From the NCBI GenBank assembly GCA_034231615.1, contig CM067315.1, forward strand, positions 14,247,267 to 14,311,266: DNA of 64,000 nucleotides, in the 5' to 3' direction. This DNA comes from Meghimatium bilineatum (taxonomy: Eukaryota > Mollusca > Gastropoda > Stylommatophora > Philomycidae). A program made the position numbers and the translations under genes. The notes beneath the pieces are model-generated. The model made no database searches. It was given only the letters and a program-made list of their open reading frames with translations, and had not been told where the DNA came from. This document shows positions 27,859-60,762 of this stretch, in pieces (position 1 is the stretch's first letter; each line of letters begins with the position of its first letter).

Positions 27859-28323
27859 ATGACGACCAGTAACGACGCCATGCAACTAAAAACTGAAACG
27901 CAACCTACGATCACGGATGTAACATTGACAGAAATCGAGATTAATGTTTCAGACATCGGTGTTACACCAGAAATTGCATCAAATTTAAGCAATGAGGTGA
28001 CTACATGTTGGAACGAATACTGCTGGGACGAGCCAACATACTACGACAAACTTCTCGAACATGTTACACCCAAGCATTATGAGTGGGTCTTTATATTTCC
28101 ATATTTCATCACTTTTATAGTTGGTTTGGTGGGAAATGGTTTAGTCTGCTTTGCAGTTTGGAGAAACCATAACATGCGAACTGTTACAAATGTGTTCATT
28201 GTGAATTTGGCATTGGGAGATTTCCTGGTCATACTTGTATGTCTTCCACCGACTTTAATTCAAGACGTTATGGAAACATGGTTTTTAGGATCCGCCTGCT
28301 GCAAGTTGGTGCTTTATCTGCAG
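27859..28323 (+). CDS. Receptor exon 1: N-terminus, TM1, TM2, start of TM3
   Basis: Encodes residues 1-155 of a class A GPCR that should sit in the plasma membrane of neuronal or endocrine cells and bind an orexin/allatotropin-like peptide. The extracellular N-terminus has candidate N-glycosylation sites (NVS at 29-31, NLS at 42-44) and no signal peptide. The acidic-aromatic YYDKLLEHVTPKHYEWVF stretch (61-78) resembles the segment preceding TM1 in orexin receptors. TM1 carries GN (N93); RNHNMRTVTN is the first intracellular loop; TM2 has NLALGD (D121); ETWFLG is extracellular loop 1; C148 is the likely disulphide cysteine. ATG 27859 is chosen as the first in frame; ATG 27880 is an alternative. 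The exon ends CAG|GTAAGT in phase 0. Confidence 0.92.
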
Positions 28324-29377: not shown

Positions 29378-32300
29378 AACCTAGGCTTAAAAAGTCTGTT
29401 TGCGGCGAAATACTCGGAAGAAGTTGGCAAATAACTCAACGGGTACATAGGCGCTAACAGCAGAGCTGTGTGGACAGCATAGGGCACAGTTAGACACATA
29501 GTACGCTCTGGCCATCCACTGCACCTGATTTTCTCCCAGTTGTCTCGACTTAGTCTTGCCACTGGACCAAGATAAAACTCAGGAGAGAGTGTGTGGTTGA
29601 CGATTAGCGCAACTCTTCCACACTATAAACCAACTTCAGCGCTAGTCATTTCTCAACCCATTTATTTACTTATCTTTACTAATTAAATATGAAGAGAACA
29701 AAGTGTGAATCAATCCTAGTTGGTTCATGGAATGTTCGGACACTTACGGATGTCTCAGATGTAAACAGACCAGAAAGAAGAACAGCACTAATTGCTAAAG
29801 AATTGGCCCGTTATAATCTGGATATTGTTGCACTTAGTGAAACGCGGTTTGCAGATGAGGGTCAGTTGACAGAGAGAGGTGGAGGGTATACATTCTTCTG
29901 GATAGGACGTAAAAACACAGAGAGGCGTGAATCAGGTGTTGGTTTTGCTATAAAATCATCTCTGGTGCAGAAACTTCCAGGTCTGCCTCGAGGAATTAGC
30001 GATCGCTTGATGTCGTTGCGATTGCAAGTGAGCAAAAATAACTTTGCCACATTACTTTCTGCATATGCGCCGACAATGACAAATCCTGATGAGGAAAAGG
30101 ATAAATTCTATGAAGAGTTGGATGCCGCTATATCTGGTACACCGAGAACTGATAAACTCATTATCCTGGGTGATTTCAATGCCCGAGTTGGCAAAGACTC
30201 CCAGACATGGCAAGGTGTTCTTGGACGTCATGGGATCGGTAAATGTAACAGCAATGGTTCCCTTCTTTTAAAGCTATGTTCTGTGCACGAACTCACTATC
30301 ACCAACACTATGTTTCGTTTGCCAACGCGCAAAAAGACCTCTTGGATGCATCCACGCTCCAAGCAGTGGCATCTTATAGACTATATCATAACCAGAAAAA
30401 GGGACATCAAGGATGTTCGTGTCACAAAAGCAATGTGTGGAGCCGAATGCTGGACTGATCACCGGCTTATAGTATCCAAACTAAATTTCACCATTGCAAG
30501 AAAAAGACGTCCACAGGGACAAAAGATAGAAAAACGCCTAAACACTGATCGGTTGAGTAACCACGATATAAAAAATAATCTCTCCAAGGATCTCGACGTA
30601 GCCTTGGGAGACTTAGATCTTCTTAATACCACATCTGAAGATAGCTGGGCTTCGTTTAAAGAAATTATTTACGCCAAAGCGAAGGAACATTTGGGAGTGA
30701 AGGTACATAGACACCAAGACTGGTTTGATGATAATAATTTTGAGATAACATCCTTGTTAGAAGAGAAACACAAAGCTTTCAAGAAACTACAAGGGGCAGC
30801 ATTTTCACCGTCCAAGAAAGTAGCCTATAACAAGATCCGTAACACTTGTCAAAAGAAGCTTAGAGAGATGAAGGATAAATGGCTAAGTCGAAAAGCTGAA
30901 GAAATTCAAATGTTTGCAGACAGAAAGGACTATAAGCGATTCTATGAGGCTTTAAGAACTATCTATGGTCCACACTCATCGGGATCACCACCTCTATTAA
31001 ATGCCGATTCGTCGAAGCTTCTCACTGATAAAAATGACATCTTAAATCGTTGGGCTGAACATTTTGAAGAAATCCTAAACAAACCATCAGTAATAAATGA
31101 AGAAGTCATAAACAGAATACCACAACTTAGGATAAGAGAAGAACTCGATATACCTCCAAGCAGTCAAGAGGTTATTATAGCGATTAAACAAATGTCAAAT
31201 GATAAAGCTCCAGGTTTGGATGCCTTACCTGCTGAAATTTATAAAAATGGCGGACCACTGCTGATTAAAAAACTAACTGACATTTTTGGTATTTTCTGGA
31301 ACTCAGGTACATTGCCTCAAGATCTAAAAGATGCTTCTATAGTGCACCTATATAAAGGCAAAGGTACCAAACAGTCTTGCGATAATCATAGGGGCATATC
31401 ACTTTTGTCTATAGCTGGTAAAATTCTCGCTCGTGTCATACTCAACAGATTAAATAATTCTCTACTAAACGAGCTACTCCCAGAGAGTCAGTGCGGTTTT
31501 CGTGCAGGTCGTGGTACAGTTGATATGATATTCTCTGCACGACAAATTCAGGAAAAGTCACAAGAGCAACATAGTGAACTCTTAGCAACATTTGTGGACT
31601 TAACTAAAGCATTCGATACCGTTAACAGAGAAGGACTGTGGAAGGTGCTTACAAAGTTCGGATGCCCCCCAAAACTTGTCACTGTGATACGACAATTTCA
31701 TGACGGTATGATGGCTAGTGTTATCTGCGACAGAGGAATATCTCCTGCATTCCCTGTCACAAATGGTGTAAAGCAGGGATGTGTGCTGGCCCCTACTCTT
31801 TTCAGCCTGTTATTTACAGCCATGTTAACGGAAACACACCATAGTAATGAAACAGCAGGCATAATGATCAATTACAGAACGGATGGTGGTCTTTTCAATT
31901 TACGTCGTCTAAAAGCAAACACGAAAACTAAATCTAGTACTGTTAGAGAATTACTTTATGCTGACGACTGTGCATTGTATGCTGACTCTGTCGTAAACAT
32001 GCAGAGCACCATAGACCGCTTCTCAAAGGCCTGCAACAACTTTGGTCTCACTATTAACACCAAAAAAACAGAAGTCATGCACCAAGCAACATCAAATAGC
32101 CAACATACTGCTACTTCCATCATCGTCAATAAGGAAAAACTGCAGGTAGTCGACAATTTTACTTACCTTGGAAGCACTCTCTCTCGCGATGTCAACATTG
32201 ATGTGGAAATTAACAAGAGACTGGCAAAAGCTAGTGCTGTATTTGGCGGATTACGCAAAAATGTATGGGACAGAAGAGGTATAAGAACAACCACCAAACT

Positions 32301-32985
32301 ACAAGTATATCATGCTGCTGTTATACCAACCTTACTATACGCCTGCGAAACGTGGACAGTGTATGCTAGACATGCAAGAAAGTTAAATCATTTCCATCTT
32401 ACCTGCCTACGTAAATTACTAAACATCCATTGGTGGGACAAAGTACCAGACTACGAGGTCTTGGAAAAATCAACCTCAATAAGCATCCACACAATACTTA
32501 TGAAGGCGCAGGCACGCTGGGCAGGCCATCTTGTGCGCATGGAGAACTCGCGATTGCCAAAACAAATATATTATGGAGAACTCAAGGCAGGATTTCGAAA
32601 AGCTGGTGGACAGAAAAAGCGTTTCAAAGACACGCTCAAGTCATCCTTGAAACATCTTAACATTGACGTAGGCGCTTGGGAGAGCCTCGCTCAGGATAGA
32701 ACGGCTTGGCGTTACAGCATTAGAACGGGAGCACTAGCGGCAGAAGAATTCAGACAAGAAACTGCAAGACAGAAGCGGACACGTAGAAAAGAAAAAACAT
32801 CTCAACCTCACACAGATACCTTCTATTGTTGTCAATTCTGTAAAAGAACATTTTGTGCGCGCATTGGACTTGCTAGTCATTTAAAAACGCACTATTAACT
32901 TTATTATTTTATTATTTATTGTTATTATTATTATGGTTGAGTTTTTGGTCATCGTCGATCACGACGGACGAACATCATCATCATC
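29378..32985 (+). mobile_element. Full-length APE-type LINE
   Basis: A 3608-bp element with a ~311-bp 5' UTR, one uninterrupted ORF (29689-32898) and a short 3' UTR ending in a CATCATCAT tail at about 32972-32985. It is flanked by an 11-bp TSD, ATACAACACAA, at 29367-29377 and 32986-32996. The insertion interrupts a minisatellite in intron 1 of the receptor, in the same orientation as the gene. A near-identical 3' fragment sits at 3254-3779. Intact ORF plus exact TSD indicate a recent insertion and possible activity. Confidence 0.95.
29689..32898 (+). CDS. LINE ORF: endonuclease, reverse transcriptase, C2H2 finger
   Basis: A 1069-residue polyprotein for target-primed reverse transcription. 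The N-terminal APE endonuclease has WNVRT (14-18), LSETR with E51, LGDFNARVG (D162, N164) and TDH (256-258). The reverse transcriptase spans roughly 490-790: DKAPGLDALPAEIY, NHRGISLLSIAGK, CGFRAGRGTVD, FVDLTKAFD (D637, D643), QGCVLAPTLFSLLF and catalytic YADD (757-760). A C-terminal region with RWAGHLVRM, GGQKKRFKD and AQDRTAW follows. A final C2H2 finger (C1048, C1051, H1064, H1068) ends at the stop. No catalytic residue looks missing. Domain order fits RTE-like LINEs, but the clade is not settled. ATG 29689 is the first in frame and follows a 5' UTR. Confidence 0.95.
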   Translation: MKRTKCESILVGSWNVRTLTDVSDVNRPERRTALIAKELARYNLDIVALSETRFADEGQLTERGGGYTFFWIGRKNTERRESGVGFAIKSSLVQKLPGLPRGISDRLMSLRLQVSKNNFATLLSAYAPTMTNPDEEKDKFYEELDAAISGTPRTDKLIILGDFNARVGKDSQTWQGVLGRHGIGKCNSNGSLLLKLCSVHELTITNTMFRLPTRKKTSWMHPRSKQWHLIDYIITRKRDIKDVRVTKAMCGAECWTDHRLIVSKLNFTIARKRRPQGQKIEKRLNTDRLSNHDIKNNLSKDLDVALGDLDLLNTTSEDSWASFKEIIYAKAKEHLGVKVHRHQDWFDDNNFEITSLLEEKHKAFKKLQGAAFSPSKKVAYNKIRNTCQKKLREMKDKWLSRKAEEIQMFADRKDYKRFYEALRTIYGPHSSGSPPLLNADSSKLLTDKNDILNRWAEHFEEILNKPSVINEEVINRIPQLRIREELDIPPSSQEVIIAIKQMSNDKAPGLDALPAEIYKNGGPLLIKKLTDIFGIFWNSGTLPQDLKDASIVHLYKGKGTKQSCDNHRGISLLSIAGKILARVILNRLNNSLLNELLPESQCGFRAGRGTVDMIFSARQIQEKSQEQHSELLATFVDLTKAFDTVNREGLWKVLTKFGCPPKLVTVIRQFHDGMMASVICDRGISPAFPVTNGVKQGCVLAPTLFSLLFTAMLTETHHSNETAGIMINYRTDGGLFNLRRLKANTKTKSSTVRELLYADDCALYADSVVNMQSTIDRFSKACNNFGLTINTKKTEVMHQATSNSQHTATSIIVNKEKLQVVDNFTYLGSTLSRDVNIDVEINKRLAKASAVFGGLRKNVWDRRGIRTTTKLQVYHAAVIPTLLYACETWTVYARHARKLNHFHLTCLRKLLNIHWWDKVPDYEVLEKSTSISIHTILMKAQARWAGHLVRMENSRLPKQIYYGELKAGFRKAGGQKKRFKDTLKSSLKHLNIDVGAWESLAQDRTAWRYSIRTGALAAEEFRQETARQKRTRRKEKTSQPHTDTFYCCQFCKRTFCARIGLASHLKTHY

Positions 32986-42060: not shown

Positions 42061-42290
42061 ACAACTTCAGTGTCCGTCTCCGTCCTCACTCTCGGCGCCA
42101 TAGCTGTGGAGCGGTGGTGGGCGATCTGCTACCCCCTCAGATTCAAAAGCACCTTACCTCGGGCTAGAAAAATTATCGTTCTTATCTGGATTGTGGCTTT
42201 TCTGTCCGCTATACCAGAGGCGGTTGTTGCAGAAACATTTCCGTACGCATTCCCGAGACGCATCTCCTCAAAACTGCTGACAGTTTGCAG
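42061..42290 (+). CDS. Receptor exon 2: TM3 end, ERW motif, TM4
   Basis: Acceptor TTTTCTCTTCATTCAG, then residues 156-231 and two bases of codon 232; donor AG|GTAAGA. TTSVSVSVLTLGAIAVERWW continues TM3 from exon 1's YLQ. It ends in ERW (172-174) in place of the class A DRY; orexin and allatotropin receptors characteristically have a Trp here. CYPLRFKST is intracellular loop 2, KIIVLIWIVAFLSAIPEAV is TM4, and C231 is the extracellular loop 2 cysteine expected to pair with C148. The match to vertebrate orexin receptors over this exon is strong. Confidence 0.95.
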
Positions 42291-45015: not shown

Positions 45016-45176
45016 ACCTTCATGGGAGGACCTGAATCAAGGTATTTACCAGATTGTGCTAGTGCTCCTGTTTTACGTGCTCCCGATGATATTGATGGCT
45101 CTCACCTACACACACGTGGCCACTGTCTTGTGGAAGCAGGAGATACCGGGTGCTGTTGTGAGCACTAAAAGTTCTG
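45016..45176 (+). CDS. Receptor exon 3: extracellular loop 2 end and TM5
   Basis: Acceptor TATGTCTTCCACAG. The first base completes codon 232 (AG|A, Arg), followed by residues 233-285 and one base of codon 286; donor TCTG|GTAAGT. WEDLNQ closes loop 2, and YQIVLVLLFYVLPMILMALT is TM5 with the conserved P255. VATVLWKQEIPG (267-277 region) matches the start of intracellular loop 3 in orexin receptors. The frame that gives this product differs from the 70-codon ATG frame in the same DNA. Confidence 0.93.
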
Positions 45177-51071: not shown

Positions 51072-51960
51072 ATAATTTTTTGTTGACATTGGTAGCATTT
51101 ATGTTACTTTTCTCATATTTTTATTTCAAATATTTATTTTTTACATATTCTTGATATCTACACATAATACACTTAAATTATCCAGTAATCATAATGTTAT
51201 TGAGGAAAAATAACCTTAAATGGCGTAATGAAAGGTTAATATTATTATTACCATTATTATTACCATTAGTATTACCATTATTAATACCATTATTATTACT
51301 ATTGTTATTACCATTGTTATTATTAGTATGATGATTATTATCGTATTTACACTGTACGGATAGTTTACAGCAATCGCCTACTGGTCTATGACATCCGTGA
51401 CAAAAGTACGTCACCGTCGCTTATTAATCTATTTGAATCCAGCGAATTTGGAACTTGTAGTCGAGAACTACAAATTTTGCAACTTGTAGTGCCTCGTAGT
51501 CACAATATGGTGGCAATAACACGCACGGCCTCCATTCTCACTTCATATTAGAACCATTTATCCGATGTTGCCACTGCGTTCTGTGACCCATGCCACGTGC
51601 ACTAAACTATAAACACACACAAAAACCATGTCTAGTGGCGAGGCACATATCCATTCGTGAATATTACACCACAATATGTGTTATCAGCTGTTAGTAAATG
51701 CGAAATGAATTGTATGAGAACAGCTGCAGTGGCTACTAAACTAGATAAAATAAGAAATGCAGAAATTAGGTAAAGAGTTGGTATAATATCATGTATTAAA
51801 CATATCGAAAGACAGTAGGTAAAATGGTTCAGTCCCTTATGAGAATGAACCCAAACCAAATATTAATAAGAACATCTATGTAACTTCAGCGCTCTATGGG
51901 ATACTAAATCTCAATAGTTTCCTAGTACTACATGAGTTTACAAGTAACAGTTTATAAGTT
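51072..51960. other. Intron 3, partial dispersed repeat and ATT/ACC tract
   Basis: 51110-51200 repeats the terminal block of the dispersed repeat (TAATACACTTAAATTATCCA). 51235-51330 is an imperfect ATT-ATT-ACC tract. The rest is unrecognised. Confidence 0.5.
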
Positions 51961-53045
51961 GTAACCTCAATCCACCCTTGCTGGAAGGAAATCAATATTT
52001 ACATTGTACCCAGAATCCACCCCTTGCAGGAAGGACATCAATATTTCAGTTGTAACCTCAACCCCCCCCCCCCTCACCTCCACTTGCTTAAAGGAAATCA
52101 AATATTTAAGTTCAACCCTCAATATCCACCCCTTGCAGGATGGAAATCAGTATTTAAATTGTACCTTCAATTTAAAAAGAAATGTATCAATATTAAATTG
52201 TACCGTCAATCCACCCCTTGCAGGAAGGAAATCAATATTTCAGTTGTAACCTCAACCACCTACCCCCCTTGCTGGAAGAACATCAATATTTAAGTTCTAC
52301 CCTCAATATCCACCCCTTGCAGGAAGGACATCGATATTAAAGTGTACCTTCAATCCACCCCTGCAGGAAAGAATCCAATATTTAAATTGTAACCTCAATC
52401 CATGCCTGCAGGAAGGAATCCAATATTTAAATTGTAACCTCAATCCATGCCTGCAGGAAGGAATCCAATTTTTAAATTACACCCTCAATCCATGCCTGCA
52501 GGAAGGAATCCAATATTTAAATTGTAACCTCAATCCATGCCTGCAGGACGGAAGCCAATATTTAAATTATAACCTCAATCCATGCCTGCAGGGACGGAAG
52601 CCAATATTTAAATTGTAACCTCAATCCATGCCTGCAGGAAGGAATCCAATTTTTAAATTACACCCTCAATCCATGCCTGCAGGAAGGAATCCAATATTTA
52701 AATTGTAACCTCAATCCATGCCTGCAGGACGGAAGCCAATATTTAAATTGTAACCTCAATCCATGCCTGCAGGAAGGAATCCAATTTTTAAATTAACACC
52801 CTCAATCCATGCCTGCAGGAAGGAATCCAATATTTAAATTGTAACCTCAATCCATGCCTGCAGGAAGGAATCCAATATTTAAATTGTAACCTCAATCCAT
52901 GCCTGCAGGAAGGAATCCAATATTTAAATTGTAACCTCAATCCATGCCTGCAGGAAGGAATATCCAATATTTAAATTGTAACCTCAATCCATGCCTGCAG
53001 GAAGGAATCCAATTTTTAAATTACACCCTCAATCCATGCCTGCAG
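51961..53045 (+). repeat. 45-bp minisatellite carrying 3' splice-site copies
   Basis: Diverged ~50-bp units from 51961, then about 15 homogeneous 45-bp units from about 52355. Each contains ACCTCAATCCATGCCTGCAG followed by GAAGGAATCCAATA, a pyrimidine-rich AG acceptor plus exon-like bases. The last unit is the natural acceptor of receptor exon 4 (GCAG|GACGGAAGCC). In most units a TAA follows eight codons after the AG; ATTACACCC variants keep the frame open. Confidence 0.9.
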
Positions 53046-53188
53046 GACGGAAGCCAATACTAGAAGGAAATAGACACACACAGGAAGACCAGGTCATGTG
53101 TAGAAGGAAAGCTGCTCGAATGTTGATCGCAATCGTCATTGTCCTTCGGCATCTGTTACCTACCTGTACACCTGATGAACCTGCTCAG
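53046..53188 (+). CDS. Receptor exon 4: intracellular loop 3 and TM6, frame broken
   Basis: Acceptor ATCCATGCCTGCAG is in the last minisatellite unit. The first two bases complete codon 286 (G|GA), then RKPILEGNRHTQEDQ and MCRRKAARMLIAIVIV open TM6. After GTC (53141-53143) an extra base shifts the frame; one base further on the DNA reads FGICYLPVHLMNLL, the expected rest of TM6, ending AG|GTGAGT. FxxCYLP matches the orexin-type form of the CWxP motif. Length minus one base (142) restores the phase needed by exon 5. Starts at 53064 or 53088 also keep phase but have poorer acceptors. Confidence 0.88.
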
Positions 53189-53264
53189 GTGAGTTTTTAT
53201 ATACATCTGGAAATAAAAACGTGTGTATGTATCTATGTAAAAACATTCATAAATAAATATATCA

Positions 53265-60640: not shown

Positions 60641-60762
60641 ATACTTCCAGGTTGTTGACTATAAAGGAAACAATGACGCCCTCTACATACAGTCGCTTAT
60701 TATCCACTGGTTACCATACATCAACAGTTCCCTGAATCCAGTAATCTACAACTTCATGAGCG
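60641..60762 (+). CDS. Receptor exon 5: extracellular loop 3 and TM7
   Basis: Acceptor GATGTTCATGTTGCAG. The first base completes codon 333 (AG|A, Arg), followed by YFQVVDYKGNNDALYIQSL and IIHWLPYINSSLNPVIYNF, TM7 with the NPxxY signature (NPVIY, 365-369 after allowing for the exon 4 shift). It ends in MS and one base of the next codon at AGCG|GTAAGC. Reading through the donor would give an unrelated ~50-codon tail, so splicing is preferred. Orexin receptors continue here with a short helix 8; the exon for it was not found. Confidence 0.93.

Follow-up and report, generated by a model that had tools for sequence, protein, structure and literature searches.

Among the literature matches listed, splice-junction minisatellites are known from a few genes of amphioxus, from human ABCA7 and, as boundary repeats, from some human duplicated genes, as far as the available text of those papers goes. 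The amphioxus cases, termed "mirages", occur in Adh3, the globins BflGb6 and BflGb9, TnC and PGBD5, and the accessible portions of the reports describe their splicing as regular (PMC3087553, PMC3902484). The array considered here lies before exon 4 of a putative receptor gene of Meghimatium bilineatum, and it resembles the mirages, so far as those portions describe them, in several respects. Both are minisatellite-like tandem duplications of an intron/exon boundary whose units include part of the exon and often a splice signal, and both show concerted evolution from which the boundary units are exempt. In addition, BflGb6 is duplicated on the acceptor side, as the receptor array is, and the 45-bp receptor unit falls inside the 10-72 bp range given for Adh3. 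There are also differences, beginning with the animal itself. BflGb6 is described in the available text as having 3-6 units of 150-160 bp, whereas the receptor array has 15 homogeneous copies; allele length variation and splicing are reported there for amphioxus, whereas the receptor array is known from one assembled haplotype. The receptor array, in turn, has an array-free paralogue that gives the ancestral state. The array fits the mirage kind in that it spans the boundary and its units carry exon bases and a splice signal. No mollusc mirage was among the literature matches listed, which does not in itself prove that none exists.

Another described system is the VNTR in intron 18 of human ABCA7, where, according to the available text, use of a cryptic donor leaves a single VNTR unit in the transcript and shifts the reading frame, and longer alleles yield more of an exon-skipping isoform (PMC5954066). 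The likeness is that the first two bases of that VNTR are the true splice site, so that the array starts at the junction. The ABCA7 array is on the donor side and has a 25-bp unit, whereas the receptor array is on the acceptor side; moreover, the same text gives polymorphism and splicing effects for ABCA7, whereas the receptor array is known from assembled DNA alone. Donor-side arrays of the ABCA7 sort do occur at other genes of the same genome.

A third group comprises internal tandem repeats at exon-intron boundaries in human segmental-duplication genes (PMC2812944). As the accessible part of that report has it, these repeats are likewise minisatellite-sized, lie at exon-intron boundaries, can alter gene structure and have been proposed as a source of introns, but they are described as alterations of exons and introns among primate paralogues, not as a row of acceptors in the gene of a neuropeptide receptor.

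The receptor gene and its 45-bp array

The window, i.e., the whole stretch of 64,000 nucleotides that was analysed, is C18:14247267-14311266 in a genome of 1.61 Gb and 32 contigs. Judged from exon 1, the gene carrying the array is predicted to be an orexin/hypocretin-receptor-like GPCR: in a search with this exon alone among solved receptors, the best match was human orexin receptor 2 (OX2R; E 3.5e-34, residues 51-152), and the next family was NPFF receptor 2 (4.6e-18). The five exons have consensus splice sites, phases agree across junctions 1-2, 2-3 and 3-4, and the reading frame is open in the exons that encode TM1-5 and TM7 (Table 1). As assembled, no open seven-TM frame exists, owing to a break in exon 4, which measures 143 nt as opposed to 142 nt in the paralogue on contig C19, a net difference of one base. 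The frame is broken inside TM6, with the residues before and after the break in different frames and exon 5 fitting the latter; the C19 copy of exon 4 is open. The preliminary description of this DNA had overlooked this break, which may stem from the assembly or reflect a genuine loss. Elsewhere in the window, a long open frame of 1071 aa (29683-32898) has the look of a retrotransposon of the RTE type, encoding an endonuclease and a reverse transcriptase.

Table 1. Positions in the window of the receptor exons and of the parts of the array
Feature	Positions	Strand	Remarks
Receptor exon 1 (TM1-TM2)	27859..28323	+	start codon 27859 or 27880
Receptor exon 2 (TM3-TM4)	42061..42290	+	ends in phase 2
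Receptor exon 3 (TM5)	45016..45176	+	ends in phase 1
Diverged, older units with irregular spacing	51953..52366	+	acceptors with good pyrimidine tracts (CCACCCCTTGCAG)
15 homogeneous units	52367..53045	+	12 of 45 bp, 2 of 46 bp, 1 of 47 bp
Last full unit	53001..53045	+	acceptor (exon start 53001) adds 15 codons in frame
Last partial unit (initial 14 bases of exon 4)	53046..53059	+	9/14 identical, ungapped, to C19 paralogue
Receptor exon 4 (end of intracellular loop 3, TM6)	53046..53188	+	143 nt
Receptor exon 5 (TM7)	60641..60762	+

Tandem Repeats Finder (TRF) reported the array as a repeat of period 45 with 19.1 copies (score 1222, span 52188-53059), and it thus crosses the boundary between intron 3 and exon 4, running 14 bases into the exon. 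A preliminary description of this DNA had proposed about 15 homogeneous 45-bp units, each with a pyrimidine tract, GCAG and some 14 exon-like bases, and had derived the array from the 3' splice site of exon 4 itself. When units were delimited by cutting at GCAG/G, the count was borne out, and all 15 homogeneous units have a tract that contains pyrimidines, the motif CCTGCAG and 14 bases resembling the start of exon 4. The units are of three types: eight combine a GAAGGAATCC-like start with TAACC, four have ACACCC, and three (52547, 52592 and 52728) have exon 4's own version, GACGGAAGCC, with one G more in unit 52592. TAACC occurs altogether in 11 of the 15 units and ACACCC in the other four. 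The proposed derivation from the exon 4 splice site is likewise supported. A search of the genome with 52000-53200 matched only the array locus and the C19 exon, and an outside origin of the 45-bp unit was rejected on this basis, with the caveat for both that very common words affect such a search.

With an approximate acceptor matrix, 408 AGs of intron 3 were scored, and the array's 20 GCAG/G acceptors all fell within the best 22. On the same approximate scale, the 53046 acceptor scored 6.9, the array copies 6.1 to 8.3 and the C19 acceptor 8.9; real competition between acceptors is therefore plausible. The phase-1 end of exon 3 at 45176 is matched by 53046, and the four other in-phase AGs (53064-53112) scored -6 to -12 against its 6.9 with the approximate matrix, in agreement with the earlier claim that the last acceptor alone joins the correct phase to a good tract.

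Reading through exon 4 is more restricted than had been thought. The preliminary description held that most units bring an in-frame TAA and that units of a certain sequence stay open. The first part stands, given the TAACC units, but only 53001 and 53046 are stop-free through exon 4, and the remaining 18 of the 20 array acceptors meet a stop. It had also been argued that the penultimate acceptor would lengthen loop 3 by 15 residues. The 53001 acceptor does add exactly 15 codons, but the isoform argument fails for the sequence as assembled: with either acceptor TM6 is read out of frame, and neither would give an intact receptor.

The C19 paralogue and the ancestral state

Exons 1-4 of the paralogue were located in order on the minus strand of C19, while exon 5 was not found within the 120-kb C19 region searched. 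Exon 4 of the paralogue (C19:30305867-30306008, minus strand) aligns from its base 1 with 53046, and the homology is ungapped from this first exon base. Its acceptor, TTTCTCTACTTCTCCAG, has a plain pyrimidine tract, and the array is absent. Because exon 4 of C19 starts at the same place without the array, the array is derived and the 53046 acceptor ancestral; on these alignments the acceptor is old and the array new. The comparison of the exon 4 boundary that had been proposed for a related species was thus available within the same genome, and it upholds 53046 as the start of exon 4. Of six more distant relatives, five have an acceptor in a similar position ahead of TM6, the sixth (L018) giving no row.

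C18 and C19 have several gene pairs in common, and these, with further pairs of other contigs, suggest an old genome duplication. Between the receptor and its C19 paralogue, dN was 0.09-0.23 per exon, whereas dS exceeded 1 or was not computable, too high for the C18/C19 split to be dated by dS.

Junction arrays at other genes

A survey of 100 exons (20 myosin, 80 kinesin) gave 129 scorable junctions, and a self-copy was defined as a second occurrence of the junction, with its exon bases, that matched at 17 or more of 22 positions and lay no further than 190 nt into the adjacent intron. Self-copies were found at 8 of the 129 junctions and in 0 of 1290 non-self comparisons. Seven may be the truer figure, since the AG chosen by script in L106 is probably not the exon start, and two more of the eight, L062 and L045, are single diverged copies with no clear array. 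Control windows gave 31/200 in introns and 0/100 in mid-exon, with scan ranges not identical to those of the junction test; junction duplication occurs, very roughly, at 0.4 of the intronic rate, which is read as partial tolerance. Among the receptor's nine junctions, the exon 4 acceptor scored 20/22 and the other eight 10 to 13/22, the donors of exons 2 and 5 having been placed 1 and 3 bases off. L111 and L114, both unclear, were excluded from the self-copy count, the latter at 16/22; L082, where the array ends in the pyrimidine tract with the AG uncopied (14/22), was left out as well, as were L009 and L010, which are merely suggestive of donor arrays.

By eye, clear arrays occur at seven loci among the 100 exons: L041, L070, L122, L128, L129, L132 and L133. 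In kinesin exons they are found at the donors of L070, L128, L122, L132 and L129 and at the acceptor of L133; L122 and L132 were not among the best-scoring self-copy rows listed. At L041 (C1:3049967-3050634), a myosin exon tail (..ISNYLLEK) is repeated together with its donor GTAATC in 35- and 43-bp units, and at L070 (C21:5035974-5036517, minus strand), a kinesin exon tail (..HIPYRDSKLTRLLQ) and its donor GTAAGC form head-to-tail 47-bp units. A related receptor (L014, on C24) has a 53-bp array at positions 1614-1906 that is opened by the donor of its exon 4, unit 1 starting 9 bases inside the exon. Taken together, these observations suggest that junction arrays are common in the genome, conserved motor-protein genes included.

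The unit lengths of the eight other clear junction arrays are 30, 35/43, 47, 47, 52, 52, 53 and 56 bp. Only one of the eight (30 bp) is divisible by three, so the 15-codon length to which meaning had been attached looks coincidental at the receptor, and it was rejected as a general feature of such arrays.

Tandem repeats of period at least 10 cover 23.4% of the window as opposed to 2.5% of 120 kb on C19 (C19:30286001-30406000), about a ninefold difference. Coverage around further paralogue exons ranges between 0 and 62%, so the low figure for C19 does not represent the genome at large; in the flanks of the surveyed exons it was 11% and 16%.

Origin of the array and what it may mean

Very probably, the array is a derived splice-junction minisatellite of the mirage type; it would be largely tolerated, with 53046 as the acceptor mostly used. 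The segment duplicated in tandem would comprise some 31 intron 3 bases together with the initial 14 of exon 4. This duplication would have followed the separation of the C18 and C19 paralogues, and the units would then have expanded and been homogenised on the intron side, in what is the presumed order of steps. The exon-proximal acceptor at 53046 would have remained the ancestral one. Splicing would most likely still occur mostly there, the 143-nt exon being defined together with its donor at 53189, and the extra acceptors would be largely tolerated, apart from some leakage to 53001 and to a small number of copies further upstream. The array would then be one of several junction duplications arising from very active minisatellite formation in this genome. 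Against this reading stand the similar scores of the copies and the true acceptor with the approximate matrix, and the initial 14 bases of exon 4, which match C19 at 64%, below the 76% of the following 91 bases.

A different view, which we consider unlikely, is that the C18 receptor copy is a recent pseudogene and that both the array and the TM6 break arose under relaxed constraint. Exon 4 is indeed a net one base off its open C19 counterpart, and changes are slightly more numerous on the C18 side than on the C19 side, by 5 to 3 in exon 1 and by 3 to 1 in exon 4, where one of the three is the frame-break codon. These excesses are, however, within noise, and faster evolution of the C18 copy was rejected. 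Decay also sits poorly with the open state and consensus splice sites of the other exons, with a dN this low beside such a dS, and with the presence of junction arrays at conserved myosin and kinesin exons. If the copy were decaying, as the TM6 break could mean, its tolerance of the array would be uninformative.

It is rather improbable that the array acts as a functional decoy or rheostat, in which near-equal acceptors divert transcripts to nonsense-mediated decay forms and to an isoform with 15 more residues in loop 3, copy number setting the output. The high ranking of the array acceptors with the approximate matrix would suit such a role, as would the stops that follow 18 of the 20 and the single in-frame extension, and the human ABCA7 VNTR is described in its available text as altering isoforms (PMC5954066). 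The amphioxus reports, so far as their accessible text goes, speak instead for regular splicing (PMC3087553, PMC3902484), the mostly non-triplet units of the other clear arrays make reading phase no general feature, and the receptor frame is broken anyway as assembled. Nothing that was found speaks for a regulatory decoy rather than a duplication that is tolerated. Finally, an independent minisatellite that merely reached exon 4 and resembles it by chance is very improbable: although the window is rich in tandem repeats and random placement would catch one or more of the nine splice sites in an array with P = 0.91, the 14 exon bases align ungapped with C19, the homology runs on through the remainder of the exon, and three units carry exon 4's own version.

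What is new about the splice-junction minisatellite at this receptor is that it can be polarised against an array-free paralogue, and that a small survey suggests such arrays to be common in the genome. A far broader proposition, for now a speculative one that we would not expect to hold, is that junction duplication is pervasive, that very many genes carry near-identical splice sites, and that some of these arrays, the one at this receptor among them, may serve as copy-number-variable rheostats of splicing and may feed new exons and introns. The possible wide spread of junction arrays in the genome is more interesting than the single receptor array. Splice sites that are nearly identical but lie at varying distances from the same exon offer natural experiments on splice-site choice, and junction arrays provide a testable route to new introns.
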